Below are positions 15,198-64,000 of a stretch of 64,000 bases of DNA, piece after piece. Position 1 is the first letter of the stretch; every line of letters begins with the position of its first letter. The position numbers and the translations under genes are program-made. The notes beneath the pieces were generated by a model that worked only from the letters and a program-made list of their open reading frames with translations, was not told the origin of the DNA and ran no database searches. Source of the stretch: a virus; IMG/VR virus record IMGVR_UViG_3300043811_000050, positions 1-64,000 of that record; one strand, 5' to 3'.

Positions 15198-16415
15198 ATG
15201 ACCGCAGAAATCGACTATATTCCGTTTGCCAATACTCTTGTGCCTCCAGCGGTGATGCCTCTATCCAGCTATGCGACCATAGCCGCCAGCGGGCTGTCTG
15301 TGGAGTTGGCTGACCCTACTCAGGCCAATAGATCATGGCGCCAGAGCAGCATGTTCGCTGCCGCGCTGGCGAACATCATCAGCACGCAGCTCGGCGGTAT
15401 CAATGTTCTCGACGACGGCAACCTGACTACGCTCATCACTAACCTGACCGCCGCGCTGCAGACACTCGGTGCGAGCGGCATCAGTCTCGGGTTCAATGCA
15501 CCGGTCAACCTGTCGATAGGCGCCTCGGTCGGGTCCAACCAGCTGACCGTCAGCATCCTCGGTACCAACGGATCGGCGCCGAGCGCAACCAACCCCGTGA
15601 CCATTCCGTTCCGTGACAGCACCATCGCCAACGGCGAGCTGGTAGCGGAAACCGTAACGGCGGCTACAACCCTCGTCATAGCATCCGGCGACACCATGGG
15701 TGCCCCCAGCGGCGTTCCGTTCCGCTTGTGGGTGGTGGCGTTCAACAACGCCAGCACCGTCGCGCTCGGTCTCATCAATTGCTCAACACCGACGACACCG
15801 ATCTTCCCCCTTAACGAGGACGCTCCGCAGACCTCAGTCGCCTCTGGCTATAGCACGGCCGGCGTCTACTATACGACGAGTGTCGTCTCCGCCAAGTCAA
15901 TTCGCATCCTCGGCTACATGGAGTGGGGGTCCGGTCTGACGACTGCTGGCACCTGGGCGACTGGTCCCACTAAGATTCAGCTATTCGGCCCTGGCCAGCG
16001 CAAACCGGGGGAACCGGTTCAGGGTCCAATAATCGGCAGCGGAACTACCCAGGGGACAACGGGAACTGTGAGCGTGTTTTCTCCGTTCTCGAATCCCATC
16101 ACCGCCTCCATAACGCCAACTGCATCAATGAATTTCATTAGAGTCCGCGTGGACGGCGTTACTGAATCCAATGGGTCGGGAAGTGTGTACCAAATCGCTC
16201 GAGGATCAACCCTGATCGGAACTATTCAGGCAGCTGATGGTGCGCTCATCTCGATCTCCGTGCCCGCCCTGGATGCGCCTGGTGTCGTTACGTCGGTTAC
16301 CTATCAATTATACGGTAAGCCAACATCCGGAAGTGGTCCCACTTTGTTCCCGTACACGAACGCCGGGGCGTTATCAACCGGAGGTCAGATCGAACTGGTG
16401 GAACTCATGGGGTAA
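15198..16415 (+). CDS. Tail fibre / collar-type protein
   Basis: 405 residues directly downstream of the DUF2612 gene. The N-terminus (YIPFANTLVPPAVMPLSSYA) and the following SWRQSSMFAAALANIISTQL match the start of many phage tail proteins that follow the baseplate wedge. The rest is beta-rich with Gly, Ser and Thr and has no catalytic motif. It ends GQIELVELMG. Probably fibre or fibre-attachment; receptor specificity cannot be read. Confidence 0.65.
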   Translation: MTAEIDYIPFANTLVPPAVMPLSSYATIAASGLSVELADPTQANRSWRQSSMFAAALANIISTQLGGINVLDDGNLTTLITNLTAALQTLGASGISLGFNAPVNLSIGASVGSNQLTVSILGTNGSAPSATNPVTIPFRDSTIANGELVAETVTAATTLVIASGDTMGAPSGVPFRLWVVAFNNASTVALGLINCSTPTTPIFPLNEDAPQTSVASGYSTAGVYYTTSVVSAKSIRILGYMEWGSGLTTAGTWATGPTKIQLFGPGQRKPGEPVQGPIIGSGTTQGTTGTVSVFSPFSNPITASITPTASMNFIRVRVDGVTESNGSGSVYQIARGSTLIGTIQAADGALISISVPALDAPGVVTSVTYQLYGKPTSGSGPTLFPYTNAGALSTGGQIELVELMG

Positions 16416-42933: not shown

Positions 42934-43593
42934 ATGAATAGGGCAAGCATAGCGTTTCTGTTGATGACAACCGCAGCGTGGGCGGATGTGATCCGCCCAC
43001 AATGTCAGACTGAAGAATCACGTGGTCTGCGGTTCACTTCGATTGCCATGTACAAGGCGGCAGATGACTCCGACCCATGGCGTAGCTGTTCCAACTGCTC
43101 GCTGCCATCTTCAGTCGTTGATACTGGTCGAGCTACGCAGGAACGCTTTCGAGCGGAAGGACACGCCGCACTATTGAAAGCACGGGCACTGGAGGCCGCG
43201 CATTGCCCTGAGATCGCCGACGCGATCATGAACAACATTCCAGCGACGGATGAAGAGAAAGCATCCATCACCACTGAATTCTCTGCATTGATGCAGAAGG
43301 AATATGAGCACACTCATAAGCTTCGAGTCTGGCAGAGAGAGCATCCGCAATGCGAACATGTCACTTGGTGGTGGGGCAGCAGAGGTGGATCGAAGGAAGA
43401 TTTTGAGGGGAAAAACGGGCAATGTTCGGCCGATGGAGCAGGCGAACAATGGCGTGGTACCAAAGACGACATGAAGATGTTCGACCCGGTGACCAATGAA
43501 CTGATAGCGAAAGTATCGTGTGCCAACGCATTACGGAAACACGGTTTTGGCGATGGCTCCTACGCCGATCCCAAGCTGTGCAGTGAAAAATGA
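42934..43593 (+). CDS. Secreted cysteine-rich protein
   Basis: 219 residues from ATG 42934 with AAGGAGG. A signal peptide (NRASIAFLLMTTAAWA, cut after AWA) is followed by a periplasmic-type domain with about ten cysteines (SCSNCSLP, PQCEHVTWWWGS, SCANALRKHGFGDGSYADPK). It would be oxidised in the periplasm. Function unknown; a secreted protein in the early region could affect envelope or superinfection. Confidence 0.65.
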   Translation: MNRASIAFLLMTTAAWADVIRPQCQTEESRGLRFTSIAMYKAADDSDPWRSCSNCSLPSSVVDTGRATQERFRAEGHAALLKARALEAAHCPEIADAIMNNIPATDEEKASITTEFSALMQKEYEHTHKLRVWQREHPQCEHVTWWWGSRGGSKEDFEGKNGQCSADGAGEQWRGTKDDMKMFDPVTNELIAKVSCANALRKHGFGDGSYADPKLCSEK

Positions 43594-47998: not shown

Positions 47999-48213
47999 TG
48001 GGCGTTGTTCTCCCGTTCAAGCGGCCGGAGTGGCGGATAGTAACCAACCCAGCTGATATGAATGGCTATCAATGTCTAGTCTGCGGCTTATTTTTTTATT
48101 TTGATTATAACTATCGATGCTCGGTCTGCGGCTTATCGTTTTATGTTGATGATGGCATCCGCATGGAAACTGACACTGAATATGCAGCTCGCATTAAGAG
48201 GCTCGAGTCGTAG
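47998..48213 (+). CDS. Zinc-ribbon-like small protein
   Basis: 71 residues from ATG 47998. GYQCLVCGLFFYFDYNYRCS and VCGLSFYVDDG repeat the motif CxVCGLxFYxD twice and provide four cysteines for one zinc ion. It is AT-rich and overlaps the portal start. The internal duplication is notable; function unknown. Confidence 0.55.
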   Translation: MGVVLPFKRPEWRIVTNPADMNGYQCLVCGLFFYFDYNYRCSVCGLSFYVDDGIRMETDTEYAARIKRLES

Positions 48214-50306
48214 TGGCTAAGCGTCAGGGTATCACGCGCAAGACACTGACGCAGGCGCAGCGCGATGAGCGCAAGCACGTCCGCGCCCTTGCGCGCACCA
48301 AGCGCGGCGGGTTTGATAGCTTTAACAACTGGTCGATCAACCTGGGGATGGGCACGAACAACGCCCTCTCCGGTGGCACCTATGGCTTCAACCCAATTAC
48401 GCGCATCCGCACCTTGTTGGAGTGGATGTATCGCGGCAACTGGCTCAGCCTCGTGGCAGTCGACGGCATTGCCAAGGACATGACGCGCGAGGGTTATACT
48501 ATCAAGGCCGAGGATCTCGAGCCCGAGGACACGAAGAAGATCTACACGCGCCTGGCGCGCACGCAGACGATGTCGTGCCTCTGTACTGTCATCAGTTGGG
48601 CGCGACTCTACGGCGGCGCTTGCGGATATATTCAAGTCTACGGGCAGGATCCGGCGACGCCGCTGCGGCCGGAGACGGTGCCGGTCGGCGGCTACCGCGG
48701 GCTAATGGTGCTTGATCGCTGGATGTTGGAGCCGCAGCTCAACGATCTCGTCGAAGAAGGACCAGAAGCTGGATTACCGCGTTTTTACCGCGTGACCAGT
48801 GACGCGCCGGGGCTCAAGGGGCGCCTCGTCCACCACAGCCGCATGATACGCTTGATCGGCGTCAAGCTGCCGTACTGGCAGGCAATGATGGAGAATTACT
48901 GGGGGCTCAGCATCTTCGAGCCGCTGTATGATCGCATGGTGGCGTTCGATTCCGCGACCATGGGCGCGGCGCAATTGGCCTATAAGGCGCATGTCCGCAC
49001 GCTCAAGATCGGCAACTATCGCCAGATCTTAGCGCAGGGCGGCCCGACGTTCAATGGCTTGATGAAGATGCTGGAGCTCGTGCGTACCGGGCAGAGCGTC
49101 GAGGGCTTGACGGTCATCGACGGTCAGGACGAGATGGAGACGCAGCAGACCGGCGCGTTGACCGGTATTGGCGAGATCGTACTCAAACTTGGCGAGCAGA
49201 TTGGCGGCGGGCTCGGTGTGCCGATGACCAAGCTGTTTGGCCAGTCGCCGGGCGGCCTCAACTCGACCGGCGAGAGCGACATCCGTGGTTACTATGATGG
49301 CATCGAGCAGAAGCAGAAGGACGAGCTGTCCGAGCCGATGCACGGCTTGACGCGCGTGGTCGCCTACAGCGAGGGCGTTGGTGACAAGCTCGGTGACGAT
49401 TTTGACATCGAATGGAATCCGCTGTGGCAGATGACCGATGCAGAGCGCGGCGAGATTGATGAGAAGAACACTGGCTCTGCGCTGGCGCTGTTCGAGTCAG
49501 GTAATATTAGTGCCCAGCAGTTGCTTAAGGAGGTCGTGCATCGTGGTCAGGCGACGAACACTTGGCAGACGAGCATCACGGCCGAGGACATCGAGGCAGC
49601 TGACGATGAGCTGCCAGAGCCCGAGATGCCAGCGATGCCTGCCGATCCAAACGCTGCACCGGGGAGTGTGACCGGCGCGACGTTCGGCGCCGGCGGGCAG
49701 CAGACGGGCCAGGTGAAGCCCGGCGGCGCGCTGCGGAAGGAGCTGCGCAAGTCGGGGGATCGCAAGGTGACATGGGGTGTGCACCAATGGGCTCGTGACC
49801 TAGACCCTAAATTATTATCGTCGTGGGCGGTTGATCGCGATTCCGATGGTTATAAGAGATATTCGCGCTATGATATCGATCCCGTGCTTGCGTCGCAGCC
49901 AGGCTCATTTATGGGACTGCCCGTCGTCGTGGAGCACAGTAAGGGCACTCAGCGCTGGGAAGGCGCCCCGCGCCTGCCGGCGCACTACGGCTACATTCCT
50001 GGCGTCGGGTCGGCTGAGGGCGAGACTGAGTGGATGGACTGCATGGTGGGCGACGCGACGGACGCGCCTTACGCATTTGTTCTCGACCACTATGATCGCG
50101 ACGGTAAGTTCGAAGAGCACAAAATCATGATTGGGTTCCATCGCCTCGAAGACGCTTTACGCGCCCACCGTGTCGCCTATGACGGCACCGGGTGCGCGGC
50201 GCGCGGTGTGTGTCAGATGACTATTCCGCAGGTGCAGCAGTGGATGGCGCGCGACCGCAACCAGCGGATTGAGGCGATGGTGCCGATGGATCGGAGGGCG
50301 GCGTGA
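48213..50306 (+). CDS. Portal protein (DUF1073) fused to pyrophosphatase-like domain
   Basis: 697 residues, GTG start overlapping the upstream stop. The first 480 residues are a DUF1073-type portal (FDSFNNWSINLGMGTNNALS, LFGQSPGGLNSTGESDIRGY). After a Pro/Gly linker, the last 180 residues (LSSWAVDRDSDGYKRYSRYD, LPAHYGYIPGVGSAEGETEW, EEHKIMIGFHRLEDALRAHR) resemble the inorganic-pyrophosphatase-like fold seen at the end of some phage portal and head proteins. The portal forms the DNA channel at the capsid vertex. Confidence 0.85.
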   Translation: MAKRQGITRKTLTQAQRDERKHVRALARTKRGGFDSFNNWSINLGMGTNNALSGGTYGFNPITRIRTLLEWMYRGNWLSLVAVDGIAKDMTREGYTIKAEDLEPEDTKKIYTRLARTQTMSCLCTVISWARLYGGACGYIQVYGQDPATPLRPETVPVGGYRGLMVLDRWMLEPQLNDLVEEGPEAGLPRFYRVTSDAPGLKGRLVHHSRMIRLIGVKLPYWQAMMENYWGLSIFEPLYDRMVAFDSATMGAAQLAYKAHVRTLKIGNYRQILAQGGPTFNGLMKMLELVRTGQSVEGLTVIDGQDEMETQQTGALTGIGEIVLKLGEQIGGGLGVPMTKLFGQSPGGLNSTGESDIRGYYDGIEQKQKDELSEPMHGLTRVVAYSEGVGDKLGDDFDIEWNPLWQMTDAERGEIDEKNTGSALALFESGNISAQQLLKEVVHRGQATNTWQTSITAEDIEAADDELPEPEMPAMPADPNAAPGSVTGATFGAGGQQTGQVKPGGALRKELRKSGDRKVTWGVHQWARDLDPKLLSSWAVDRDSDGYKRYSRYDIDPVLASQPGSFMGLPVVVEHSKGTQRWEGAPRLPAHYGYIPGVGSAEGETEWMDCMVGDATDAPYAFVLDHYDRDGKFEEHKIMIGFHRLEDALRAHRVAYDGTGCAARGVCQMTIPQVQQWMARDRNQRIEAMVPMDRRAA

Positions 50307-50683
50307 TCTTTCGCACAATCGTCTTTGCTGCTGTTTTGTGCGCTGGCGCTGCTCATGCGAAGTGGCAAAACGTCGCCGGAGAATGGGACCAGTATCGTCT
50401 CAACGAGACGCAAAAGCAGTGGTTCAAGGGTGTGCACCCAAAGCGGTCAGGGCTGGCCTGCTGTGACATAGCAGATGGCCACCCGACGGCTGACTAGCAT
50501 CGCGCTGATGGCTGGTATATCCCAAATCCGTTTCATCCTGATTGGGACTGGGTGCGCGTGCCCGACGAGGCGATGACTGTGCCTGGAACTAATCCGATTG
50601 GCGTCGCGACGGTCTGGTTCGGGACGCAGCAGGCTGACGGAACACCATATATTCGTTGCTTCGTGCCGGAAGCCGAAACATGA
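50303..50683 (+). pseudogene. Secreted conserved phage protein interrupted by an in-frame amber codon
   Basis: GTG 50303 opens a frame with a signal peptide (IFRTIVFAAVLCAGAAHA). The frame meets TAG at 50495-50497 after GLACCDIADGHPTAD. It then continues without any change of frame to TGA 50681-50683 with RADGWYIPNPFHPDWDWVRV, PDEAMTVPGTNPIGVATVWF and PYIRCFVPEAET, which are exactly the rest of a protein type known from many phages (CCD...DGH, VPDEA, IRCFVP). Either the gene carries a nonsense mutation or TAG is read through. Confidence 0.8.
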
Positions 50684-51424: not shown

Positions 51425-51561
51425 CTAAACGGATATCTGGTAAGTATTTCGCCCTGTACTTGGGGTCGAAGAGTCATCCGTACTGGGTGAGATACAGCTG
51501 GAAGCACCTGTTTCGTGGACTGCCTACTCCCGCGATGAGGGCGTGGATAGATGCCTCGTGA
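51421..51561 (+). CDS. 46-residue basic protein
   Basis: ATG 51421 overlaps the preceding stop. Product TKRISGKYFALYLGSKSHPY, then WVRYSWKHLFRGLPTP, basic and aromatic, possibly binding DNA. It overlaps the Mu-F-like gene by 11 bases. Confidence 0.4.
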   Translation: MTKRISGKYFALYLGSKSHPYWVRYSWKHLFRGLPTPAMRAWIDAS

Positions 51562-52321
51562 CGAGGCTTCCCGCCACCAGCGCGCCAAGCAGCGCCGCAA
51601 GGAGCAATCCGTGTTTGGTCGCGTGCGGCGCGCCGAGATGCAGTATTCGCGTCAGCTGCGCGCCATCGCCCGCAACTGCGGCCTGCTTGCTCATCACTAC
51701 GATCCCGACAAGCCTGAAACGGCACACTGGCTGGTGGGTGCGTTGCGACAGTATGCGGAGACGGTGCGGAATTGGGCGACTGCCAGCGGCGCGCGGATGC
51801 TGGCCGAGGTTGAGCATCGTGATGCGCAGGCGTGGGCGAAGCACAGCAGGAATATGAGCGAGGGGTTGCAGCGCGAGATTGCGACGGCGCCGACGGGAGA
51901 GCTTCTTCGTGCGCTATTGGCTGAGCAGGTGGATCTCATAACTTCAATTCCGCGCGAGGCTGCCGTTCGAGTGCAGGAACTGGCTGTACGCGGGATGGAA
52001 GGAAGCGAACGCCCGGCGCACATCGCCGAGGAGATAATGCGTACGGGCGAGGTCACGGAATCTCGTGCTCGACTCATCGCACGCACCGAAGTCGCTCGGG
52101 CGTCAAGCAAAATGACGGAGAGCCGGGCGCGCTATATCGGTTCTGAGGGCTATATCTGGCGCACCGCCGAGGATCGCGACGTGCGACCTGAGCATCGCAA
52201 GCTCAACGGCAAGTACTTCAGCTGGGACGATCCGCCGATCGCAGGGAGCAATGGCGAACGCGCGCACGCAGGTCAAATCTATAATTGCCGATGCGTCTGC
52301 GAGCCCGTGGTGCCCGAGTGA
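51551..52321 (+). CDS. Minor head protein, Mu gpF-like
   Basis: 256 residues. IARTEVARASSKMTESRARY, then YIWRTAEDRDVRPEHRKLNG, KYFSWDDPP and HAGQIYNCRCVCEPV is the C-terminal signature of the Mu gpF/SPP1 gp7 head-morphogenesis family, which enters the prohead and helps assemble or eject DNA. The N-terminal half is helical. Order portal then gpF is typical. Confidence 0.9.
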   Translation: MPRDEASRHQRAKQRRKEQSVFGRVRRAEMQYSRQLRAIARNCGLLAHHYDPDKPETAHWLVGALRQYAETVRNWATASGARMLAEVEHRDAQAWAKHSRNMSEGLQREIATAPTGELLRALLAEQVDLITSIPREAAVRVQELAVRGMEGSERPAHIAEEIMRTGEVTESRARLIARTEVARASSKMTESRARYIGSEGYIWRTAEDRDVRPEHRKLNGKYFSWDDPPIAGSNGERAHAGQIYNCRCVCEPVVPE

Positions 52322-52344: not shown

Positions 52345-53640
52345 ATGAAGAAGCTATGGACTCTGATGGCGGGCGCTCTCGCTCTCGCTGCTGCGTGGAT
52401 CAAAAACCCGGCGGTCGCCCTGTTGGCGTGCGCGCCGGCGTGCGCCTTGGTGCTGTGTACGGCGGTCGCCCCCCGGCTGGGGGCACAGCCCTATCCAATC
52501 AACTCGCCATTCTACATCCCTAGCGCGATCCTTGGCCAACAGACCATCACGGTCGCCGCCGGGTCGAGCTACGTGTTCCAGACCAACGGCCAAGGCACGT
52601 TATACATGCGCGTCTCGGGCTCGCCGGTTGGCCTGTCGGCCCAGGTGCAAGTGACGGAAGGACGCGCGACGCAGACGGTCGCGCAGACGCTCACTTCTTT
52701 CACGCAGGCGAATCCTGGCGTGTTCACGCTCGCCAATCACGGCCTGTCGATCAATCAGCCGGTCGTCTTTACGTCGGCACAATCGACGCTGCCGACGCTG
52801 ATCGTGTCGGGTACCACGTATTACGTGGTTGCGGGCGGATTTACGTCCAGCACGTTCGAGCTGGCGGCCACGCCGGGTGGCACTGCAATCAATACCACCG
52901 CGGGCTCCCCGAGTGGTACGGTGACATTCTCGAGCACGTCGCTGCTGTGGAATAATGCAGCTGTCGACCAGGTCGGGGGATGGCGCGTCTCCAGCCCGAT
53001 TACTGCCACCGGACTCTATAAGCTCAATGTGTCGGGCGCTGCCGCGGTGCGGCTGAACGTCTCGGCGCTGACGAGCGGTGTCACTTATGTCGACTTCAGT
53101 GCTTCTCCTGGTGAAGAGTTCGTTCGCACCAATCCAATGACGCGGGCGACATATCGAGCCTCTGCGTCGATTGGCACAGGTGCGACGACCAACTTCCTGG
53201 TGCTCGCCGGCAGCGCCACCAAGAACGTCATTATCACTCATGCCGACTGCTCTGGCCGTGCGACCGCGGCCATTGTGGTCGGGATTGAGGCTGATTTGCG
53301 TTCCACGGCAGACAGCGGCGACGCGGGCACCGCCGTAACTGCGACCCCACTTGACAGTAGCATGGGCGCGGCGACGGCCACCGTGGTCAGCCATACCACG
53401 AGCCCAACACCGGGCACGCTGACGGGTGCTGTGGCTGTCGGCCAGCTCGGCATTGTGGTTGCTGCGCCGAGCGTGACCGATTTCCCGATGCCGAACGTGC
53501 TCAACTTCGAGTTCGCACGCTGGCCGGGTTCGTCCCAGGTCGTCCTTCACGGTGTCGCTCAGGAGTTCTCGCTGACGACCAGCGCAGCGTTCGGCACGGC
53601 CGCCGCGGTGACCTGCAATCTTGAATGGCAGGAAGATTGA
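52345..53640 (+). CDS. Secreted-type structural protein
   Basis: 431 residues from ATG 52345 with AGAGGAG upstream. A signal-like N-terminus (KKLWTLMAGALALAAAWI, later LLACAPACALVLCTAVAP) is followed by a beta-rich protein (GQQTITVAAGSSYVFQTNGQ, VIITHADCSGRATAAIVVGI). A repeated-strand domain near residue 120 (ANHGLSINQPVVFTSAQSTL) is of the kind seen in phage surface proteins. It starts the run of exported-type genes. Confidence 0.6.
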   Translation: MKKLWTLMAGALALAAAWIKNPAVALLACAPACALVLCTAVAPRLGAQPYPINSPFYIPSAILGQQTITVAAGSSYVFQTNGQGTLYMRVSGSPVGLSAQVQVTEGRATQTVAQTLTSFTQANPGVFTLANHGLSINQPVVFTSAQSTLPTLIVSGTTYYVVAGGFTSSTFELAATPGGTAINTTAGSPSGTVTFSSTSLLWNNAAVDQVGGWRVSSPITATGLYKLNVSGAAAVRLNVSALTSGVTYVDFSASPGEEFVRTNPMTRATYRASASIGTGATTNFLVLAGSATKNVIITHADCSGRATAAIVVGIEADLRSTADSGDAGTAVTATPLDSSMGAATATVVSHTTSPTPGTLTGAVAVGQLGIVVAAPSVTDFPMPNVLNFEFARWPGSSQVVLHGVAQEFSLTTSAAFGTAAAVTCNLEWQED

Positions 53641-53666
53641 GCAATGTCTAGCGAGGGAGACAGGCC

Positions 53667-54089
53667 GTGCTGAAAATAAGGGTGGTCCTTGTCGTGGCGA
53701 TGCTGAGCCTTCTCAGCGTCTCTCTCGCCTGCGCCCAGTCTTTCCCGCGCGGGTATCTAAGCGCGGCTAACCTCAACCCCACGCTCGTCAACGGCGGACC
53801 GACGCTCATCAAGATGCTCGTGCTGGTTAATACCACTACGACGCTCTACTATCTCAAGTTCTACAACAAGGCGACAGCGCCGACGTGCGGTACCGACACG
53901 CCGCTTTGGACGGTGCCGGTGCCGTTTGGGGCCTCTAACTCCGGGAGCGGAGCTGTGATCCCCGTTCTTGACGGCCTGCAGTTTCCCCTTGGTCTCGGCT
54001 TCTGCCTGACGGGTGGCATCGCCGCGAACGACACTACGAACGCTGCCACGGGCGTTGCGATCAATCTCGGGATCACGAGTTATCAGTGA
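53667..54089 (+). CDS. Secreted small beta-rich protein
   Basis: 140 residues, GTG start. Signal peptide LKIRVVLVVAMLSLLSVSLA with cut near ACAQ. The mature part NTTTTLYYLKFYNKATAPTC, PFGASNSGSGAVIPVLDGLQ and FCLTGGIAANDTTNAATG is a common pattern in phage and prophage proteins. It is probably a surface or virion component. The stop overlaps the next GTG. Confidence 0.7.
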   Translation: MLKIRVVLVVAMLSLLSVSLACAQSFPRGYLSAANLNPTLVNGGPTLIKMLVLVNTTTTLYYLKFYNKATAPTCGTDTPLWTVPVPFGASNSGSGAVIPVLDGLQFPLGLGFCLTGGIAANDTTNAATGVAINLGITSYQ

Positions 54090-54502
54090 GATATGCCCTG
54101 GTGGCGGCCTTCGCTCTTCTCGCGAGCAGCGCGTGGGCGCAGCTCACGACCATGGGCATCGGGGGTGGCGGGGGAGGCGTCTTCAATGGTCCATCGGTTA
54201 TCGCGGTCACGCCGAACACTGGGCCTACCGCGGGTGGAACGCCAGTCGTCATCAGCGGGACAAACTTCACTGGAGTCACTGCCGTCAGCTTCGGCGGCAC
54301 GCCGGCGGCTTCTTTCATGTTTATCAATGGAACGACGATCGACGCGACGTCCCCGGCGGGATCATCCGGCGTCGTTGACGTGCGCGTTACTACGCCAGTC
54401 GGCATGAGCGGGATAAACGTTGGAGATCGGTTTACCTACGGAACGGTGTGCTCGAACTCAATGGACTTTAGCCAGCCATGCAATACGCAATATGGATTTT
54501 AG
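54086..54502 (+). CDS. Secreted IPT/TIG-domain protein
   Basis: 138 residues, GTG start. Signal peptide RYALVAAFALLASSAWAQ, then a glycine run (GIGGGGGGVF) and one IPT/TIG immunoglobulin-like domain (VIAVTPNTGPTAGGTPVVIS, VSFGGTPAASFMFINGTTID, VVDVRVTTPVGMS). TIG domains bind sugars or proteins on cell surfaces. Confidence 0.75.
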   Translation: MRYALVAAFALLASSAWAQLTTMGIGGGGGGVFNGPSVIAVTPNTGPTAGGTPVVISGTNFTGVTAVSFGGTPAASFMFINGTTIDATSPAGSSGVVDVRVTTPVGMSGINVGDRFTYGTVCSNSMDFSQPCNTQYGF

Positions 54503-54771
54503 CAGTTTTTCTCGCGTCCGCGCTGTCGGCGCTTGCGCAGGAGCGCACGTTCACGTGGACGCTCACCGAATCCGAAATGAATTACATTGGGGCGCTGATT
54601 GATATTGAGAAGGCTAAGCCATCAGGGCAGCTTGTCCAGCACCTTGCGGACAAGATCCAAGCCCAAATAACGCAGCAAGTGCAGACGGGCCAGAAGGCGG
54701 CGCTGGACGCGATCGAAAAGCAGGTGCGTGACAGGGTTGAGGCCGAGAAGCATAAGGAACCGCCGCCGTGA
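54478..54771 (+). CDS. Secreted helical protein
   Basis: 97 residues, overlapping the TIG gene by 25 bases. Signal peptide QYAIWILAVFLASALSALAQ; the mature part is helical (LTESEMNYIGALIDIEKAKP, QHLADKIQAQITQQVQTGQK) and may form a coiled coil. Stop overlaps the next start. Confidence 0.65.
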   Translation: MQYAIWILAVFLASALSALAQERTFTWTLTESEMNYIGALIDIEKAKPSGQLVQHLADKIQAQITQQVQTGQKAALDAIEKQVRDRVEAEKHKEPPP

Positions 54772-55940
54772 TAAAGCTCCTTCGTCTTTTGGCGTGCAGT
54801 CTCGTGCTCGCGTGGGGTGCGCCTGCGTCGGCGAATTGGCTGTATACGCCTGGTGCCGGACCTTCCAACTTTAGATCATTCAATAGCGGCACGACTCCTG
54901 CTGGGACGTCTGCGTGCGCCGCGACGAATACTGACTGCATGGCGTTTGTTCCTATAGATATCACGGGGACGCCACTCTTTTCCTCCGGTAATCCTGGTGT
55001 CGTGTCAGGTGGACCTTTTGCGGTCACAGGGACATTTTGGCAGGCCACTCAGCCGGTGAGCGGCACCTTTTGGCAGGCCACTCAGCCGGTCAGTGGTACA
55101 TTCTGGCAGGCAACACAACCGATCAGCGCCGCGGCATTACCATTGCCCACTGGCGCTGCTACTCAAACGACGCTGGCCGCCGTCCTGTCAGCGCTTGGTT
55201 CGCCCTTTCAGGCCGGTGCGTCGATCGGTAATACGACATTCGGATCAACACAGGGTACGTCGCCGTGGGTCATTGGTGGCGCGGCTGCGGCGGGCGCGGT
55301 TCCGGTCGGCAATCCGTTGTTCACCGGAATGTTTGACGGGACCGACATCCGCCGCGTGATGGGCGATGAAACGAACGGCCTATGGGTCAACATCAAGGCG
55401 GGCGCGGGTTCCGGTGGGACGGCACTCGCTGACGAGGCGCCGTTCACGCAGGGTGCGACGAACACGACGCCGCTCGGGTGTTTCTATACTACCTCTGTGA
55501 CCAATTTGCTCACCGGCCAGGCTGGCGTGGGCCGCTGCACTAATGATCGTCAGCAAATGACGTCGGACGCGGCGGTGTTGGCGCAGCTCGTCACACTGAA
55601 CGCGACGGCACTCACGCCGGTCCCGTTTCCGGTTAACATCACATGGACACCGTGCACAGGGGCGACCAGCGCGAATACAATTGCAGCCGGTGGAACGGCG
55701 CAAGTCGCGCTGCCAGCAAGTGCAACGGTTCACGGCTTTGCTATTGCAAATAACTCTGCCGACCCGATGTGGTTGAGCTTTACTACGACAGCAACGATCG
55801 GCAGTGATTTTTTATTGCCTGCGGGGTCGTCAACGGTGTCCGGTGGTAGTTTCTTCGGCCCTCCTGGGTCTGGGTTTAATGGAAACTTGTCAGTGATAGC
55901 GGCCACGACTGGGGATAAGTTTTCGTGCACAAAATTCTGA
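54768..55940 (+). CDS. Secreted structural protein with FWQATQP repeats
   Basis: 390 residues. Signal peptide IKLLRLLACSLVLAWGAPAS with cut near ASAN. Residues about 86-118 repeat VSGTFWQATQP three times; the rest (GGTALADEAPFTQGATNTTP, MWLSFTTTATIGSDFLLPAG) is beta-rich. The repeat and C-terminal domain are of a type found in phage tail and virion proteins. Probably surface-exposed. Confidence 0.7.
   Translation: MIKLLRLLACSLVLAWGAPASANWLYTPGAGPSNFRSFNSGTTPAGTSACAATNTDCMAFVPIDITGTPLFSSGNPGVVSGGPFAVTGTFWQATQPVSGTFWQATQPVSGTFWQATQPISAAALPLPTGAATQTTLAAVLSALGSPFQAGASIGNTTFGSTQGTSPWVIGGAAAAGAVPVGNPLFTGMFDGTDIRRVMGDETNGLWVNIKAGAGSGGTALADEAPFTQGATNTTPLGCFYTTSVTNLLTGQAGVGRCTNDRQQMTSDAAVLAQLVTLNATALTPVPFPVNITWTPCTGATSANTIAAGGTAQVALPASATVHGFAIANNSADPMWLSFTTTATIGSDFLLPAGSSTVSGGSFFGPPGSGFNGNLSVIAATTGDKFSCTKF
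55023..55121 (+). repeat. Three tandem 33-bp repeats
   Basis: Units at 55023, 55056 and 55089 each encode V-(S/T)-GTFWQATQP; the first two share most bases in CACTCAGCCG and TTTTGGCAGGC. Unit number could change by slippage or recombination. Confidence 0.85.
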
Positions 55941-57574
55941 CCATAGTCGCATTTTTGTTGCTCGGTCTCCTGGCACCCCGCGAGGCGTCGGCGCAGCTTG
56001 TGCCGCACGGTTTTCCATCAGCGTTTAGCGGTGGAGGCGGCCTAACCCAGACGAGCTATTACGTCAACAACAGCGGTAGTGATTCTAGCCCTGGTACCGT
56101 TGGCAGCCCATGGCAGACACTCACCAAGGTCAATGGCTTCACGTTTCCAACGAATTCGACCATTTTTTTCGCGGGTGGTCAGTCATTCTCCGGCACGCTT
56201 GAGATAGGAACCGGGTTCGTAACGGGGGCGCAGTTCAGCGGCACTTTAACGGTCGATTCCTATGGCACTGGACGGGCTACCATAAATGCCGGAACCGGCG
56301 ACGGCTTCTATATTATAAATGTTGGAAACGTGACTATTCAAGACCTGATCTTTACGGCATCGGGAGGCGCGAACAATCTCGGAGGGTATGTCACCAATTC
56401 TCAGGCCGGCAACACGCAACTTAGTAACGTCCTGCTAAACAACCTTGATGTGAGCGGATTCGACAAGGCACAGATAGTCCTTGGCGGCGATGCTGGGACT
56501 TCTGGGTTTACGAACTTCTCGCTGACAAACAGCGTTCTGCACGGCGCGGGGAATAGTGGATTCCAATCCTACGGCAGCGTAAGCGGAAGCTACTCGCACT
56601 ACAATGTCACGCTCACGAATGTCACCACGTATGATATCCCTGGCCACAGCGGAGTTGGCTCCGGAAGCGGAATAGTGTTGGGAGAGGTCGATGGCGCGAC
56701 CGTCCAAAACAGCCTGTCCTATGGCAACGGCACTATTGGTTTAGGGGGCGTCGGCATCTGGACCTATGACTCGAACAACATCCATTTCGTCGAGAACGAG
56801 TCACATCACAATACTAGCACCAGCGGCGACGGCGACGGGTTCGACTTCGATGGTGGAATAACTAACTCTCTTATGGAGAAAAACTATTCTCATGATAACA
56901 AGGGCAGTGGTTTCTTGCTATATGCGTATGCTGGTTTGCCATGGAGCAGTAACACTCTTCGGGATAATATCTCTCAGAATGATGGTTCTGGGGGAGCTAG
57001 CGGCATATATATTGGAAATGATGGCACGGCGGTTCAGACGGGCGCGTCGATCTACAATAATACGGTATACAATTCGAGTGGCCGCGAATGTCTTGCGATT
57101 GGCGTAGGTACCTCTTCCAATAACATCACCGCCCTTATCGCAAACAACATTTTCAATTGCGATTCAACTCCGCTGGTCGCCACTGCAGCGACATTGACAG
57201 GATCGTCAGTATCTCTACTCACCAACGACTATTATGCGCCGACATCGTTTTCCATTACGTGGTTGGGAGCGACCTATACCAGTTTTGCCTCATGGCAGAC
57301 GGCTACAGGGCAAGAGAAGATCAGTGGGACGAACGTCGGGCTTACGTCGAACCCATTGTTGTCCGGTGCCGGGAGCGGCGGAACGTGCGGGGGATGGTCG
57401 GCGACATGCCCGTCGCAGTACGAGCTGACCTCCGGTTCGCCAATGATTGGCACCGGGCTCAACCTGACATTGTCTCCCTATAGTCTGGTAGTTGGGACAA
57501 GTGACTACTACACTAATACGATCCCGAATGGGACTGGCACTGGCTATAATGTCGGCGCATACGGGGCACCATGA
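55925..57574 (+). CDS. Secreted right-handed parallel beta-helix protein
   Basis: 549 residues, GTG start. Signal peptide HKILTIVAFLLLGLLAPREA with cut near ASAQ. The mature protein begins YYVNNSGSDSSPGTVGSPWQ, the start of pectate-lyase-like helices, followed by PbH1-type rungs (NVTIQDLIFTASGGANNLGG, GFLLYAYAG, ASIYNNTVYNSSGR). Such helices form phage tailspikes that bind or cleave surface polysaccharide. No catalytic residues are assigned. Confidence 0.75.
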   Translation: MHKILTIVAFLLLGLLAPREASAQLVPHGFPSAFSGGGGLTQTSYYVNNSGSDSSPGTVGSPWQTLTKVNGFTFPTNSTIFFAGGQSFSGTLEIGTGFVTGAQFSGTLTVDSYGTGRATINAGTGDGFYIINVGNVTIQDLIFTASGGANNLGGYVTNSQAGNTQLSNVLLNNLDVSGFDKAQIVLGGDAGTSGFTNFSLTNSVLHGAGNSGFQSYGSVSGSYSHYNVTLTNVTTYDIPGHSGVGSGSGIVLGEVDGATVQNSLSYGNGTIGLGGVGIWTYDSNNIHFVENESHHNTSTSGDGDGFDFDGGITNSLMEKNYSHDNKGSGFLLYAYAGLPWSSNTLRDNISQNDGSGGASGIYIGNDGTAVQTGASIYNNTVYNSSGRECLAIGVGTSSNNITALIANNIFNCDSTPLVATAATLTGSSVSLLTNDYYAPTSFSITWLGATYTSFASWQTATGQEKISGTNVGLTSNPLLSGAGSGGTCGGWSATCPSQYELTSGSPMIGTGLNLTLSPYSLVVGTSDYYTNTIPNGTGTGYNVGAYGAP

Positions 57575-60150
57575 GAAAAATCGCCATAGCTATTATTTTC
57601 TTTCTCGCTGTTTTCGGCGCGTTGCCGTCACATGCGCAGTTCAACGGCTGCGCGCCGGGGTTCTGTGGCTCGTATCCGCTTTCCACGGCAGGATGCACGT
57701 CAGCTTCTACATATATCGGCCCTGGAGACAAACAGGCTTACGCTATTTGGGCAGGGGTACGGGCCTACTCGCACGCGACGTGTGGAAAGCCGGCGCTGAA
57801 TGTCTGCGACAGCACGGGCGGCTCGGACGTGTCTTGCGCTGATCTGGTAACCGACACCACGACAGGACTGATCGTCGCCAAGGCGATGCCGCCGCCTAGC
57901 TCGATCACATGCGGAGCCGTGCACAATCCTAACTGCACCGTGAAGATCATCTATGATCAGACGGGCAACAACGCCTGCGGCGGCCCGTGCAATGCCACTC
58001 AGAACACGGTGGCGAATAGATACTACATTGACAGCTACTCTAGCTGCAGCGGGCTCTCGGCGACCATTTGCCTGTACAGCAACGTGGCGACGTCCGGCGG
58101 GTACACCATGCCTGGCTCTGCCACGTTCTCGCAGCCCTATGCGATTGAGATAATCGCATACACCGCGAACGCTAGCGCTCTCAATATCTTCATGCAGGTT
58201 AACGATACTAGGTTGTATTTTCAGACTTCATCCTCCGGCGACATCATCAGCGCGTGCGACTATACGAGTTTCGCGACGACTAATATCTACTCGAACGTGC
58301 CGACTGACTTGGTATCAACCTGCGTCGGGGGGGTAAATTCCCTGTATCAGCAGGGCGTCGTGAGCGGCAATACTGGCTCGGGCGGCGCGACGACTCAGGC
58401 AGGGACGCCGTCCGTCCTGCAAAACTCGTCGTCGCCGGTTAACTTCTGGGAGTACGGGTTTATCAACGGCAACCCGATTTCGAATATCCCAACGATACAT
58501 ATGGCTGCTTGTACGTTCTATGGATACACTTGTGGCGGTTCGGGATGTACTGCGGCTACTGCTTGGCTGGCGCGCACGTCTGGGCTCAGTATGACCGAGA
58601 CCAATGCCTATACTACCATGATCTGTGGCATGATTGCGGATGGAAACGGATGTGCGGCATGGAGCGGCAGCAGTGGCACTATGGACCTGCTTTACGTTTT
58701 TGCCACGAACACGACGACTACGGCAAATTTGAATCTGTGCGGGACCGGAAATACTCTGACTCAATCAGGAACCGTTACGTTCCTTGCCGATAACTATTAT
58801 CAAGGGAACGGGTCTACGGGATACTTTGATACCGGCCTGATACTTCCATCGACCGACTTCACCCAAAACAGTGCATCACTTGGAACCTATGTTCTCAACA
58901 ACAGAACCAGCACGAGCCTTTCGTACTGCGAAATTGGACATCCGACGGGGATATTTATAGCGCCGGACAACAACGCGGGCGGATATGAACAGTCCTTGCT
59001 AGAGGTAACAGGTGACTCGGCTGCAGGTCAAACTTCTGCGCAGGGCGCGTGGATTGCAACAAGAACTGCAAGTAATGCAGTTGCTGGATATAAAAATGGA
59101 AGTTCCACGCCGATTTTGACAGGAACAACTGCGAGCGTGAGTTTTAGTGGGTCATACAGCATCTACGTTTCTTCTTGTCGCTTTGGTGCTGGCCAAACCG
59201 CGTCCAATTGGTCTGCCGATCAGATCGCTGCCACCTTTGTCGGTGGAGCACTCACCGCAACCCAAGCTGTGGCTATCAATAATCGAATTAACGCCTACAT
59301 GACTGCGCTCGGGATCAACGTGTATTCGGCGAGTTGCAGTGGCTACCAGGGTGCTGGAGATATAATTCCGTCTGCATCGGCCGGGTTCTCAGTACAGGCG
59401 TGGTCGGTGGCGACATGCGGCAGCAAGGTTGCAAATGTATGCGTGTCCGGGGTTTGCGCGGACATGTTGTCTAGTGCGATAAATGGACAGCTTGTTTCGC
59501 AGAACATCAACGGGACTGTGTGCCCGGCCACGAGTACGACTGCGTGCGTCGTTGAAAAGTGGTACGACCAGACGGCGAGTGGGCAGTGCTCGGGAAGCTG
59601 CGATCTTGGCCAATACATGACCAACCCATATATGGTCCTGACGACAGCATGTCCGAGCCCGATTACTGTTTGCTTGATAAGCAACAGCACTGGGACTGCT
59701 GCAATTAATGCAGCGGCCGGAAACATAACCTTGCCGGTTCCGGTCACAACCATGGTCGCTGGAGCCATAGCTAGCACCGGAGCGGGAAGTTTCAATCAAT
59801 ACTTTGCCGTGAGCAATGGCGCACAAATAACCGCTGATGGCGGGGCAGCCAACACCGTCGATTTTAGTTGTAACGCCTTTGGGACTTCGCATTCAAATCC
59901 CACGACCGATGGCGTATTTCATTCCCTTCTTTTGGAATGCGATAGCACGACATATGGCATTTGGGTAAACGGGTCAGCTGGGACCTCATCGTCATGGACA
60001 TCAGCTTCAGAAACCGGATTTCCATACGCTGGATACACTGCCACACCAAGTCAAGCGGTGTATCTTGTCGAAGCAGGCATTTGGAAAAGTGGCGCGTCCG
60101 CTAGCGCAGCGGCTTTATACACCAACCAGCACACAAGGTTCGGGTTCTGA
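57571..60150 (+). CDS. Secreted protein with two arabinofuranosidase-like modules
   Basis: 859 residues. Signal peptide RKIAIAIIFFLAVFGALPSH with cut after SHAQ. Two modules, near residues 50-290 and 610-855, contain the pattern AxSxATCGxKxANVC ... VC-ADM ... YDQT-G-C, e.g. CGKPALNVCDSTGG, KIIYDQTGNNAC and CGSKVANVCVSGVCADM, KWYDQTASGQCSGSC. This matches the arabinofuranosidase-B-like or LamG-type fold found in phage proteins. A lectin-like domain lies between. It is probably a surface glycan-binding protein. Confidence 0.65.
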   Translation: MRKIAIAIIFFLAVFGALPSHAQFNGCAPGFCGSYPLSTAGCTSASTYIGPGDKQAYAIWAGVRAYSHATCGKPALNVCDSTGGSDVSCADLVTDTTTGLIVAKAMPPPSSITCGAVHNPNCTVKIIYDQTGNNACGGPCNATQNTVANRYYIDSYSSCSGLSATICLYSNVATSGGYTMPGSATFSQPYAIEIIAYTANASALNIFMQVNDTRLYFQTSSSGDIISACDYTSFATTNIYSNVPTDLVSTCVGGVNSLYQQGVVSGNTGSGGATTQAGTPSVLQNSSSPVNFWEYGFINGNPISNIPTIHMAACTFYGYTCGGSGCTAATAWLARTSGLSMTETNAYTTMICGMIADGNGCAAWSGSSGTMDLLYVFATNTTTTANLNLCGTGNTLTQSGTVTFLADNYYQGNGSTGYFDTGLILPSTDFTQNSASLGTYVLNNRTSTSLSYCEIGHPTGIFIAPDNNAGGYEQSLLEVTGDSAAGQTSAQGAWIATRTASNAVAGYKNGSSTPILTGTTASVSFSGSYSIYVSSCRFGAGQTASNWSADQIAATFVGGALTATQAVAINNRINAYMTALGINVYSASCSGYQGAGDIIPSASAGFSVQAWSVATCGSKVANVCVSGVCADMLSSAINGQLVSQNINGTVCPATSTTACVVEKWYDQTASGQCSGSCDLGQYMTNPYMVLTTACPSPITVCLISNSTGTAAINAAAGNITLPVPVTTMVAGAIASTGAGSFNQYFAVSNGAQITADGGAANTVDFSCNAFGTSHSNPTTDGVFHSLLLECDSTTYGIWVNGSAGTSSSWTSASETGFPYAGYTATPSQAVYLVEAGIWKSGASASAAALYTNQHTRFGF

Positions 60151-62804
60151 TGAATAGGGTCATTGCTCTCATCGTCTGTGCGCTGTTTGTCCTGGGCGCT
60201 GCGGCCCATGCGCAGTTTAACCCCGGCGGCAGCGGTGGAGGCGGAGGCGGAGGCGGAGGCAGCAGCACCCCCTTTGGGAACTTCATTGATCCGACCGTAC
60301 TGTTCAATGCTGACACGACCGGTACAGCCACCACCGGGACGATCACGAACGGTACTAACTCGCTGAGCGTCGCGAGCGCCACTACATGGCTCAATGGGCA
60401 AGGCATCGCGATCGCCAATGCAGGTCCGAGCGCCACCTTCACCGGGACGGCGGGGATTACGACCATCACGGCCGCTGGTGAGTCGGTTACGGTGCCCTCC
60501 CTTACCGTGTCGGCTGTGACCGGTACAATAACAGCGGGGATGCTAGTCTCCGGGACGGGGGTGCCTGCTGGAACCTACATCGGTCAGCAGACGAGTGGCA
60601 CGACCGGAGGGGCCGGTGTCTACGTCGTAAGTGCGACGACGACGGCCAGCGCCGCAAGCTTGGCCGGAAAGACAGAACTGATTGGCTGCGTCGGATCGAT
60701 ATCTGGGACCACGTTCACCATCGTCACTTGCGGCACAACCACAGCGCTCAACGCCTCGGCCACGGCGACGACACAGGCAGTCAACCACGACGACACCTAT
60801 GCGCTCGGGCAGGCTATAGCGCTGGCGGCCCCTGGACCACCCAAGCGCCCGATCAATCTCCCCTGTGGCACCTATAATGTGACCAGCACGCTCGTACTTG
60901 CTTATCCGATAAACATATTCGGAGAGGGAAGGGTGTGCGCCACCATACAGAATCGCGGCACGACAGATGATGTTTTGAAATTGACTAATAACTACACCAC
61001 CGGCGGCGGCCTGACGCTGCGAGATTTTGCTGTCTCCCAGGCTTCCGGGATTACCCCGACCAACGGGTACGGAATAAATCTGGCAGCCGCCGGGGGAGAT
61101 TGCATGTCTCAGGCACAGCCGCAGACGCACATATTCGATATGTATATCAGCGGCACATATGGGGGGATGAACATGGGGCCGGGTGTGTTAAATAGTTGGT
61201 TCAAGGACATGACTATTTATGGCTTGGGCCTTGGTCAGGCTATTTTTTATAATAATCCTCCACCATGCGGTGACAATGTTGTTGATGGTGTGTTCATGGG
61301 GGGTAACACTACATCCGGCCTTATTATAGCTACAGCCGACACCATATCATTTGTCAACAATAAAATCCTCAATTCTCAGTTGAAATTTGTGGCCGCCACT
61401 AGTTCCATCAGCGCCGCTATGCCGATCATAGACCGAGTACGAGTGGAAAACTTAAGCATTGAGGTAAACCCCGGTGGTCCGTCCTGTCTGATCGATTTTG
61501 GCACAAACGGTGTTTACCAAGTCATACTCATTGGAGGTGAGGCTGGCGGATCGGACGGCCAGTCGGCGCTGTTCTGCAACGCCAACAACAATATGAATGG
61601 CTATGTTTCAGGAATGGTCTCTGCTGGAACCAGCGATTATGCGGAAGGCGCCGTTAACGCGGAGTGGCCTGCCCCCATATTCCAAGGCTGTGGTACCAAT
61701 GGCACAGCCGTGGGAAGCGCCCTGAGCGGCACTGTCACCATGACGTGCTCGATGGGCAGCAACATGGCGATGCGGTTTGGTGTTCCAGCGACCACCAGTA
61801 ATGGAGCGACCATTGTAGTCCCAACGGTGAACTCAGGGTGGACATGCAGCGTCCAAGATGCGACTACCCCGGCCAATAGTTTTGTCCAGACTGGATGGAC
61901 GATTAATATAGCGTTCTTCAAGAACATAACGGCAGGTAGCGGCGATCAACTAACGTATGCCTGTCACCGGGGTGGGCCAAATCTACCTCCTTCGTGCTGG
62001 GGCCCTGGCGATATTGCTCCTGCTCTCGCTTGGCATGGGCTGCGGGCTTATTCGTCGGCTACTTGTGGCGCTCGGTTTGCCAACGTGTGCGTTAGCGGCG
62101 TGTGCGCGGACATGGTGACAAGTTCGACCACGGGTGCGGTGGTGCCCCAGGTGATCAACAGTGTCACTTGTCCAAATTCGTCCGGCACCTGCAAGGTGGC
62201 GAAATTGTACGATCAGACTCTCGGGAGCCAGTGCACCGGGTCGTGCGATCTAGCTCAGTCCGTCACAGCGGACCAATTTGAATTTATTACTTCGACGCCT
62301 CCTTCTGGAATCTGTAAGAGTGCATCACTGTGCCTTTATGACCCAGGGACGGCCGGAACTATCAATATGCTAAGTGCCGGGTCGGCTAGTATGTCGTTGC
62401 CATTCTCACTTGAATATGTCGGGTATATGAACACGACATCTGCAGCTCCCACACTAATTTCGATAGGAAGCGCTGGGATAGTCAATGATGGGGTCAACGC
62501 AAATCACTACTATTACTCGTGTAATTTTACCAATGGTAATGGAGCGCTCGATCTGCTGTCCACTCAGTTGTACCCTTTTATACTTACCTGTCCAGAGGCT
62601 AACACGAGCACACTGACCGCTTATGGTGTCATTATGCAGACTGTGGCATTTGGATCGGCTGGTACACAGAGCGGTCAGCTGGTGCTGGGGTCGGCGAATA
62701 ATGTGCCCAAGATTGTCGTGGAGGACGGCTTCTGGAACAGCGATCAAACTATTAACACGCCATTGCTCGGGTCCAATACGACTGCGTTCTGGGGCATCCT
62801 ATGA
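60150..62804 (+). CDS. Secreted tailspike-like beta-helix with arabinofuranosidase-like module
   Basis: 884 residues. Signal peptide NRVIALIVCALFVLGAAAHA, then a glycine run encoded by GGAGGC repeats (near 60234-60270). Residues about 220-520 form a pectate-lyase-like helix starting with INLPCGTYNVTSTLVLAYPI and TLRDFAVSQASGI. The C-terminal third (LRAYSSATCGARFANVCVSG, VCADMVTSS, AKLYDQTLGSQCTGSC) is a third copy of the module found twice in the preceding protein. Probable polysaccharide-binding spike. Confidence 0.7.
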   Translation: MNRVIALIVCALFVLGAAAHAQFNPGGSGGGGGGGGGSSTPFGNFIDPTVLFNADTTGTATTGTITNGTNSLSVASATTWLNGQGIAIANAGPSATFTGTAGITTITAAGESVTVPSLTVSAVTGTITAGMLVSGTGVPAGTYIGQQTSGTTGGAGVYVVSATTTASAASLAGKTELIGCVGSISGTTFTIVTCGTTTALNASATATTQAVNHDDTYALGQAIALAAPGPPKRPINLPCGTYNVTSTLVLAYPINIFGEGRVCATIQNRGTTDDVLKLTNNYTTGGGLTLRDFAVSQASGITPTNGYGINLAAAGGDCMSQAQPQTHIFDMYISGTYGGMNMGPGVLNSWFKDMTIYGLGLGQAIFYNNPPPCGDNVVDGVFMGGNTTSGLIIATADTISFVNNKILNSQLKFVAATSSISAAMPIIDRVRVENLSIEVNPGGPSCLIDFGTNGVYQVILIGGEAGGSDGQSALFCNANNNMNGYVSGMVSAGTSDYAEGAVNAEWPAPIFQGCGTNGTAVGSALSGTVTMTCSMGSNMAMRFGVPATTSNGATIVVPTVNSGWTCSVQDATTPANSFVQTGWTINIAFFKNITAGSGDQLTYACHRGGPNLPPSCWGPGDIAPALAWHGLRAYSSATCGARFANVCVSGVCADMVTSSTTGAVVPQVINSVTCPNSSGTCKVAKLYDQTLGSQCTGSCDLAQSVTADQFEFITSTPPSGICKSASLCLYDPGTAGTINMLSAGSASMSLPFSLEYVGYMNTTSAAPTLISIGSAGIVNDGVNANHYYYSCNFTNGNGALDLLSTQLYPFILTCPEANTSTLTAYGVIMQTVAFGSAGTQSGQLVLGSANNVPKIVVEDGFWNSDQTINTPLLGSNTTAFWGIL

Positions 62805-64000
62805 GCCGCAAGCGCTGTCCTTACGGGCCGACGAGCGAGGCTGACGCCGCCGCGCTGCGGGCGGCAAAGGAAAAGCGTTTTCTCGACGAGCGCCTCGCAC
62901 ATTTAATGTGGGGGCAAAAAGTTCTGACTGCGGCGAAGGCCACGGCGCTGGGCGCACTCGCGCTTGCCAGTGTGGCGTTCGTTGCGTTGCCGTCCGACAG
63001 GGTTTCCCGAAGAACGGCGCTGGGCGCACTCGCCAGTGTGGCGCTCATTGCGTTGCCGTCCGACAGGGCCGAGGCTTGGTTTCCTCACGGTACAGCCAGC
63101 GGCCCGCCTCCGATGACGCCGCAGTGGCCCGTGGCCCTGGGCGGATATACTAACTATTGGGTCGCTGATCCAAGCGCCGGGGGGAATGATACCACCAATA
63201 CCGGAACAAGCATGTCGTCGCCGTGGGCGACTGTTTCTAAGGTTAACACCGCGCTGGCTGGAGCAACGGGGAACGTTGCTGTAAACTTTCTTAGCACGTT
63301 TACCTATCAATGCCCGCTCAACGGGGCCGTACTCACTCCGTCCGGGACGACTAACTTTGCGTATCGTGGGTTGGTCGGCGCGACGACCCCTCCGATAATC
63401 TCAGCCAACGGCGTGGCCAGCAATCTCGGGATGGTTCGCACCGGAAGTGGTGTGCTTTTGGAGGGCATATCATTCCAAGGAAACTCAAACTCGTATGGGG
63501 TAGTGACAGGCGGGTCTGGTCTGGAAATTTCCCATTGCTGGGTTCAGAGTTTCCCTGTGGCAGGCGGCGGTGGGGTCGCTATTGCGGTTAACAACACGAA
63601 TACAAACATTCATGACTCTGTAATAGGTGGTCTAAGCCCGACCGACCAAACCAGTGTTGGTGTCATATATAACGCTGTCAGTGGTTCGGTTCTAAAGAAC
63701 AATACCATAGGGTATTGTGGTGGTAACCAAGCTAATCCAACACAGTATGGATTTGGCGTCCACACAACGGACAGCACGCTCACAGGAGTCCCCGGATTTA
63801 CATATTCCGGTGGCGTTCCTACCAACGCCCTTTTGGAAATAGCCTTTAACATAGTTCATGACTGCGGGGGGAATCTTACTTCGACGTTCGGTGGCGGCCC
63901 CAGCGGGATTGAGCTGGGCGGCGGTAATCGTCTATGGTGCCACGACAACATCGTTTATAACATACAGTCTGTGTCGTCGTTTACGGGTGGAACTGACTTT
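62801..64000 (+). CDS. Beta-helix protein with duplicated Tat/Sec-like leader (3' partial)
   Basis: ATG 62801 overlaps the preceding stop, and the frame is open for 400 codons to the window end. A charged start (SRKRCPYGPTSEADAAALRA) is followed by two hydrophobic segments in tandem, TALGALALASVAFVALPSDR and SRRTALGALASVALIALPSD, the second with a twin-arginine and an AEAW cut-like end. The rest begins YWVADPSAGGNDTTNTG, then shows beta-helix rungs (GVLLEGISFQGNSNSYG, NIHDSVIGGLSPTDQTSVG). The gene is incomplete. Confidence 0.65.
   Translation, partial: MSRKRCPYGPTSEADAAALRAAKEKRFLDERLAHLMWGQKVLTAAKATALGALALASVAFVALPSDRVSRRTALGALASVALIALPSDRAEAWFPHGTASGPPPMTPQWPVALGGYTNYWVADPSAGGNDTTNTGTSMSSPWATVSKVNTALAGATGNVAVNFLSTFTYQCPLNGAVLTPSGTTNFAYRGLVGATTPPIISANGVASNLGMVRTGSGVLLEGISFQGNSNSYGVVTGGSGLEISHCWVQSFPVAGGGGVAIAVNNTNTNIHDSVIGGLSPTDQTSVGVIYNAVSGSVLKNNTIGYCGGNQANPTQYGFGVHTTDSTLTGVPGFTYSGGVPTNALLEIAFNIVHDCGGNLTSTFGGGPSGIELGGGNRLWCHDNIVYNIQSVSSFTGGTDF
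62942..63068 (+). repeat. Tandem duplication encoding the leader segment
   Basis: ACGGCGCTGGGCGCACTCG begins copies at 62942 and 63014, both ending in TTGCCGTCCGACAGGG. The first copy has six extra bases (GCGCTT). The duplication doubles the hydrophobic segment of the leader. Confidence 0.8.

Follow-up and report, generated by a model that had tools for sequence, protein, structure and literature searches.

A run of genes with candidate export leaders between the MuF and DUF2213 genes of a phage

IMG/VR record IMGVR_UViG_3300043811_000050 (73,133 bp) carries nine successive genes with N-terminal leaders that occupy the gap between the Mu-F-like (MuF) head gene and the DUF2213 capsid gene (52345 to 64945 of the record). 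We analysed the first 64,000 bases of this record (the window) and refer to genes by their first base; the block genes, the MuF gene, and the gene at 50303 lie on the plus strand. With moderate confidence, we propose that the block encodes late proteins of adhesin, decoration, and beta-helix type that are exported through Sec and often disulphide-bonded. They would fold in the periplasm and work extracellularly, most likely on virions.

A nine-gene block within the head genes

The gene content points to a contractile-tailed phage with a Pam3/E217-type myophage head. The record encodes a portal protein (PF06381), MuF, DUF2213, cement, and capsid (PF09950) proteins, a sheath, and a baseplate, and also DUF4054, an endolysin, a family A polymerase, and a Pam3 gp34-like protein. 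The portal protein (48213-50306) has an inorganic-pyrophosphatase-like domain (InPase, PF18823) fused at its C-terminus. The phage has a tail fibre gene of its own at 15198, with a PHROG tail-fibre match and no leader. The record yielded neither a tyrosine integrase nor a large serine recombinase. In the part of the record labelled L002, which runs to the record's end, an HNH endonuclease gene (6652-7428 of L002) is inserted directly behind the major capsid gene. The final ~124 bases of the record recur near 493-616, and the 490 bases before them are a ~85%-alike copy of the record start. Thus, the genome (~72.5 kb) is probably complete or near complete, and permuted. An HK97-gp10-like gene is present as two 85-100% alike copies at the contig ends (record bases 1-616 and the last 613), which reflects a tandem duplication unless the assembly closed on a diverged strain. 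The alphaproteobacterial host group that had been assumed for this phage was not supported.

The left border of the block is the leaderless MuF gene (51551-52321, PF04233, E=2e-18). From 52345 through DUF2213, the intergenic distances are +26, -4, -25, -4, -16, -4, -1, -4, and -4 bases: from 53667 onward, all neighbours overlap by 1-25 bases, and the ninth gene overlaps DUF2213 by 4. This arrangement suggests that the block is translationally coupled, including to the capsid genes. No promoter or terminator signal in the block rose above chance, promoter matches being at chance level. Together with the overlaps, this indicates that the block probably shares the head transcript.

Leaders were scored with a home-made heuristic (n-region charge, h-region hydropathy, and the -3/-1 rule), which is not SignalP. 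Six of the nine leaders were clear, that of 54478 was weak, and those of 52345 and 62801 were atypical. The six clear genes show the features of Sec/SPase I substrates: a basic n-region, a hydrophobic h-region, and small residues at -3 and -1. Just three of the 82 other genes of the 73-kb record reach a score of 4.9, the value of the weak leader. We then randomised the first 44 residues in 2000 trials per gene. The real score was reached by 0-3 shuffles for the six clear genes and for 50303 (see below), by 7 for 62801, by 26 for 54478, and by 423 (21%) for 52345. Controls show the error rate of the score: ~4% of genes of at least 90 aa in MuF-related control loci reach 6.0; the longest run of leader genes in 77 such loci was two. 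A score of 6.0 was reached by 0 of 560 core virion homologues (a raw count, relatives not collapsed), drawn from TerL, portal, MuF, DUF2213, cement, capsid, DUF4054, and presumed tape measure, sheath, tube, and baseplate genes.

These results bear out the original prediction on two points: the run of leader genes in a structural locus is real by this heuristic score, with every open reading frame present where it had been placed, and virion proteins normally lack export signals. A cut-like site of the AxA-Q kind that it described (the last hyphen marks the cut, here and below) is present by eye, as A-Q, in seven of the nine genes. The glycine run that it noted after several leaders is present in three genes (54086, 55925, and 60150). 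Glycine runs are enriched yet infrequent: 8 of 224 leader genes have one, three being window genes, versus 8 of 2611. We therefore rejected them as a general companion of leaders.

The block combines surface and polysaccharide modules (TIG, beta-helix, pectate-lyase-like, and tail repeat). The first gene (52345-53640, score 6.8) has an atypical leader with two hydrophobic stretches and an LGA-Q site. Residues ~116-194 of its product resemble a repeat of tail fibre and collar proteins, with matches in Rhizobium and Sinorhizobium phage tail proteins; three other loci (L084-L086) have homologues with clean leaders, and L007 has one, identified by eye, at the corresponding site. The second gene (53667-54089, ACA-QS, score 9.1) is decoration-like. 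The third (54086-54502, AWA-QL, score 7.5) encodes the TIG domain that had been foreseen (PF01833, E=6e-12), and the fourth (54478-54771, score 4.9) has a weak leader with no basic residue in its n-region. The fifth (54768-55940, score 8.1) encodes an FWQATQPVSGT repeat protein with 80 related loci. The product of the sixth (55925-57574, ASA-QL, score 8.2) is modelled by AF2 as a right-handed beta-helix (mean pLDDT 71), in line with the fold first proposed; Foldseek matched the model to GH136 lacto-N-biosidase, alginate epimerase, and phage tailspikes.

Two large cysteine-rich proteins follow. The seventh gene (57571-60150, SHA-QF, score 8.6) has 34 cysteines in its mature part and contains two copies of a cysteine-rich domain. 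The eighth (60150-62804, AHA-QF, score 9.1) contains a third copy and a pectate-lyase-like part, whose match to PF12708 (E=9e-6, 26.0 bits) falls just below the cut-off of 27. Ten cysteines are invariant among these three window copies (alignment A1). We claim no fold for it because its AF2 model has a pLDDT of 43. The domain gave no credible PDB-sequence match, and 57571 matched no Pfam or PHROG family. The ninth gene (62801-64000, on to 64945 of the record; AEA-WF, score 7.0 from an internal start) has an SRR motif and an N-terminal region of ~95 residues with a duplicated leader and, as in 52345, two hydrophobic stretches. An imperfect tandem duplication of ~55-60 bases is visible by eye in its leader DNA (62940-63070). 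The links between the block proteins and known tail families come down to the tail-repeat stretch of 52345, weak matches to PHROGs of unknown function, and predicted folds. The arabinofuranosidase-like protein that had been suggested found no Pfam, PHROG, or PDB match.

Upstream from MuF, 50303 (50303-50497) also has the leader ascribed to it (score 8.0). It belongs to a CC-x-x-ADG family (alignment A2) and is interrupted by an in-frame TAG at 50495; the remainder stays open to 50683 and still matches the family. The TAG is either a nonsense mutation or a sequencing variant. Recoding of the codon was rejected because TAG is the ordinary stop of 13 genes here. In this family, 69 of 76 relatives score at least 4, and some leaders have no good cut site. 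The family is widespread, with 123 relatives in viral contigs. Outside the block, near the replication genes, 42934-43593 has a leader score of 5.7, 8 cysteines, and no Pfam match. In the mature parts of the block proteins and 50303, we counted 92 cysteines in 3973 residues (2.32%), versus 0.63% for other structural-side genes.

Leader genes in other phages

In most other MuF relatives, MuF adjoins DUF2213 with no block between them, which identifies the gap as an insertion site. The nearest MuF relatives that have extra genes at this site (L005, L007, and L008, 49% identity) carry leader genes there. By position and by eye, their insert holds 52345-like and 53667-like genes, and a 50303 relative lies between portal and MuF. 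The 50303 relative is syntenic after the portal gene in L007 and L008, and L008 has, in the position of 53667, a leader gene of weak similarity to it.

Runs of leader genes also recur in unrelated phages, again at structural loci. Six viral loci with differing neighbours carry the cysteine-rich domain of 57571 and 60150, each with three to seven successive leader genes. A different phage (L350) has four leader genes with short Lys-rich leaders, one of them a relative of 55925, so the leader habit may reach a distant host group. A cultured phage collection gave no protein match for 57571, 60150, 54768, or two CC-x-x-ADG relatives. In bacterial genome contigs, short patterns, which provide weak evidence, detected nothing related to the cysteine-rich proteins.

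Leaders and cysteines in tail-protein families

A tail-collar fibre family found outside the window (A4, 74 non-redundant members) contains 11 leader-bearing and 63 leaderless members, with scores all either ≥7.0 or ≤1.9. Four cysteine columns are occupied in 11/11, 10/11, 11/11, and 10/11 of the members with a leader versus 0/63 of those without. The leader-bearing members form one clade (SH-aLRT 98). Thus, the association of leader and cysteines has a single origin: one event, kept over deep divergence and long branches. The gene is single-copy in all ten leader-bearing records examined and, in records whose flanks were read, has neighbours similar to those in leaderless phages. Across the leader divide, the first 50 mature residues share 62% identity (21-42% elsewhere), so the likely docking segment is retained. 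Within the leader clade, the leaders are 37% identical among themselves, versus 69% for the next 50 residues: the leader is conserved in kind, not in letters. A tyrosine integrase was absent from 6/6 leader-bearing records and present in 3/3 leaderless ones; the numbers are small and the records are fragments. Among cultured phages, a leader-bearing query matched only Bradyrhizobium phage ppBeUSDA76-2, whose relative is leaderless and without the extra cysteines, and one Microcystis phage.

Leader-plus and leader-minus pairs occur in at least four further structural families. In PHROG_8763 tail proteins, the leader is prepended exactly ahead of the mature start. A leader-bearing relative of the window's 15198 tail fibre, in L083, has 6 cysteines versus 1. 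In the FWQATQP-repeat family of 54768, 15 of the 80 loci are leader-bearing and 65 clearly leaderless, with a median cysteine content of 0.9% versus 0 (raw counts, relatives not collapsed). In the beta-helix family of 55925, the leader comes and goes and leaderless members have equal or more cysteines; cysteines are therefore not a universal mark of the leader. No leader-bearing member was found among the cultured phages examined.

Export, site of action, and known systems

Export of the block proteins through their leaders is, as far as sequence can tell, well supported by the cysteine enrichment, the A4 cysteine columns, the 0/560 core homologues, and the recurrence in unrelated phages. The block, the leaders, the coupling, the cysteine pattern, and the occurrence of leaders on recognised tail-protein families are all read from the DNA; cleavage, disulphides, virion attachment, and a glycan target are what we infer from it. 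In the model that we favour, a late, translationally coupled nine-gene block inside the head operon would supply proteins to the Sec machinery of the host, with Tat perhaps serving 62801. Each leader would be cleaved off, the mature protein would fold in the periplasm, and disulphides would form there on the cysteine-rich products. The products would be adhesin, decoration, and beta-helix proteins akin to tail fibre and tail spike modules. The burst would release them, and their extracellular role would most likely begin with binding to virions during lysis or later; lysis is the sole occasion that we can offer for proteins from the periplasm to reach particles made in the cytoplasm. Bound proteins may help virions to bind or trim polysaccharide of the envelope or the environment. 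A broader proposal is more tentative: scattered uncultivated tailed phages would export fibre and decoration proteins by Sec, disulphide-bond them in the periplasm, and attach them at or after lysis, and leader and cysteine pairs would have been gained together, separately in several tail-protein families.

The proteins could instead be exported and never join the virion, serving before or after lysis as free decoys, as enzymes that degrade polysaccharide, or as a coating on the surface of the infected cell. We consider this less likely overall, yet a serious rival in the window phage, because that phage keeps a conventional leaderless fibre (15198); for the same reason its exported set is accessory. 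The predicted glycan-active beta-helix fold of 55925 and the insertion of the block at a site that is empty in most relatives also agree with free secretion. However, the block is positioned and coupled within capsid genes, and in A4 the fibre gene that bears the leader has no second copy and keeps its N-terminal segment. The original prediction had offered either exported surface-modifying or decoy proteins or fibres matured across the membrane. That the leaders mark export is supported, and membrane-matured fibres fit better than decoys since elsewhere the leader occurs on a single-copy tail-collar gene, in its usual place, with the N-terminal segment kept; between virion attachment and free secretion, the window proteins themselves are undecided.

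Two other readings concern the leaders. That they are uncleaved anchors, holding proteins in the inner membrane for assembly or lysis, is improbable: the imperfect cut sites of some CC-x-x-ADG relatives and the double hydrophobic stretches of 52345 and 62801 would suit anchors, but most leaders have AxA-Q-type sites, the A4 leaders keep their pattern and not their sequence, and the mature parts are large and beta-rich. We give very little weight to functionless leaders, either passive leftovers from host genes for secreted proteins or N-termini that are hydrophobic by chance. The score is a heuristic and shuffles of 52345 often match it, yet such leaders would hardly form a run of nine, recur in unrelated phages, or be kept across the diverged A4 clade along with four clade-specific cysteines.

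The prevailing view is that tailed phages fold and assemble their tail fibre and decoration proteins in the cytoplasm. A leader on the sole tail-collar copy with new cysteine columns would mean two-compartment assembly or a secreted arm of lytic phages. Secreted glycan-active "auxiliary" virome genes may then be virion parts, which would affect annotation and bear on the discovery of receptor-binding proteins. Full-text searches of open-licence papers turned up no account of tailed phages whose tail fibres or decoration proteins carry signal peptides.

Known phage genes with export signals include lambda-type tail-operon morons such as Lom and lipoprotein morons (Cor, Llp). Those are single small outer-membrane proteins, whereas the window block comprises nine late, coupled genes whose domains are of tail-fibre type, in a record that yielded no integrase. 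A lysogenic-conversion moron was rejected on account of the coupling to capsid genes, the chance-level promoter matches, and the failure to find a tyrosine integrase or large serine recombinase, which make lysogenic conversion unlikely. In filamentous phages (Inoviridae), the coat proteins pIII and pVIII are virion proteins with cleaved Sec leaders, assembled by extrusion through the membrane; the window phage has candidate leaders of this kind but differs in having a predicted contractile tail and an endolysin. Beta-helix tailspikes and depolymerases (Pam1, CBA120 TSP3) share the modelled fold of 55925, which has a leader; to our knowledge, known tailspikes are made without one. In other phages, not among the window proteins, the mature parts of leader-bearing relatives are near-full-length members of the PHROG_8763 tail protein family and of the ppBeUSDA76-2 tail-collar fibre family; the cultured ppBeUSDA76-2 member differs from them in having neither the leader nor the extra cysteines. 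With Pam3/E217-type myophages, the window shares the cement protein, portal, capsid, and Pam3 gp34-like protein, but most MuF-related loci examined have no block between MuF and DUF2213. The component parts are of known kinds, and their combination appears undescribed.
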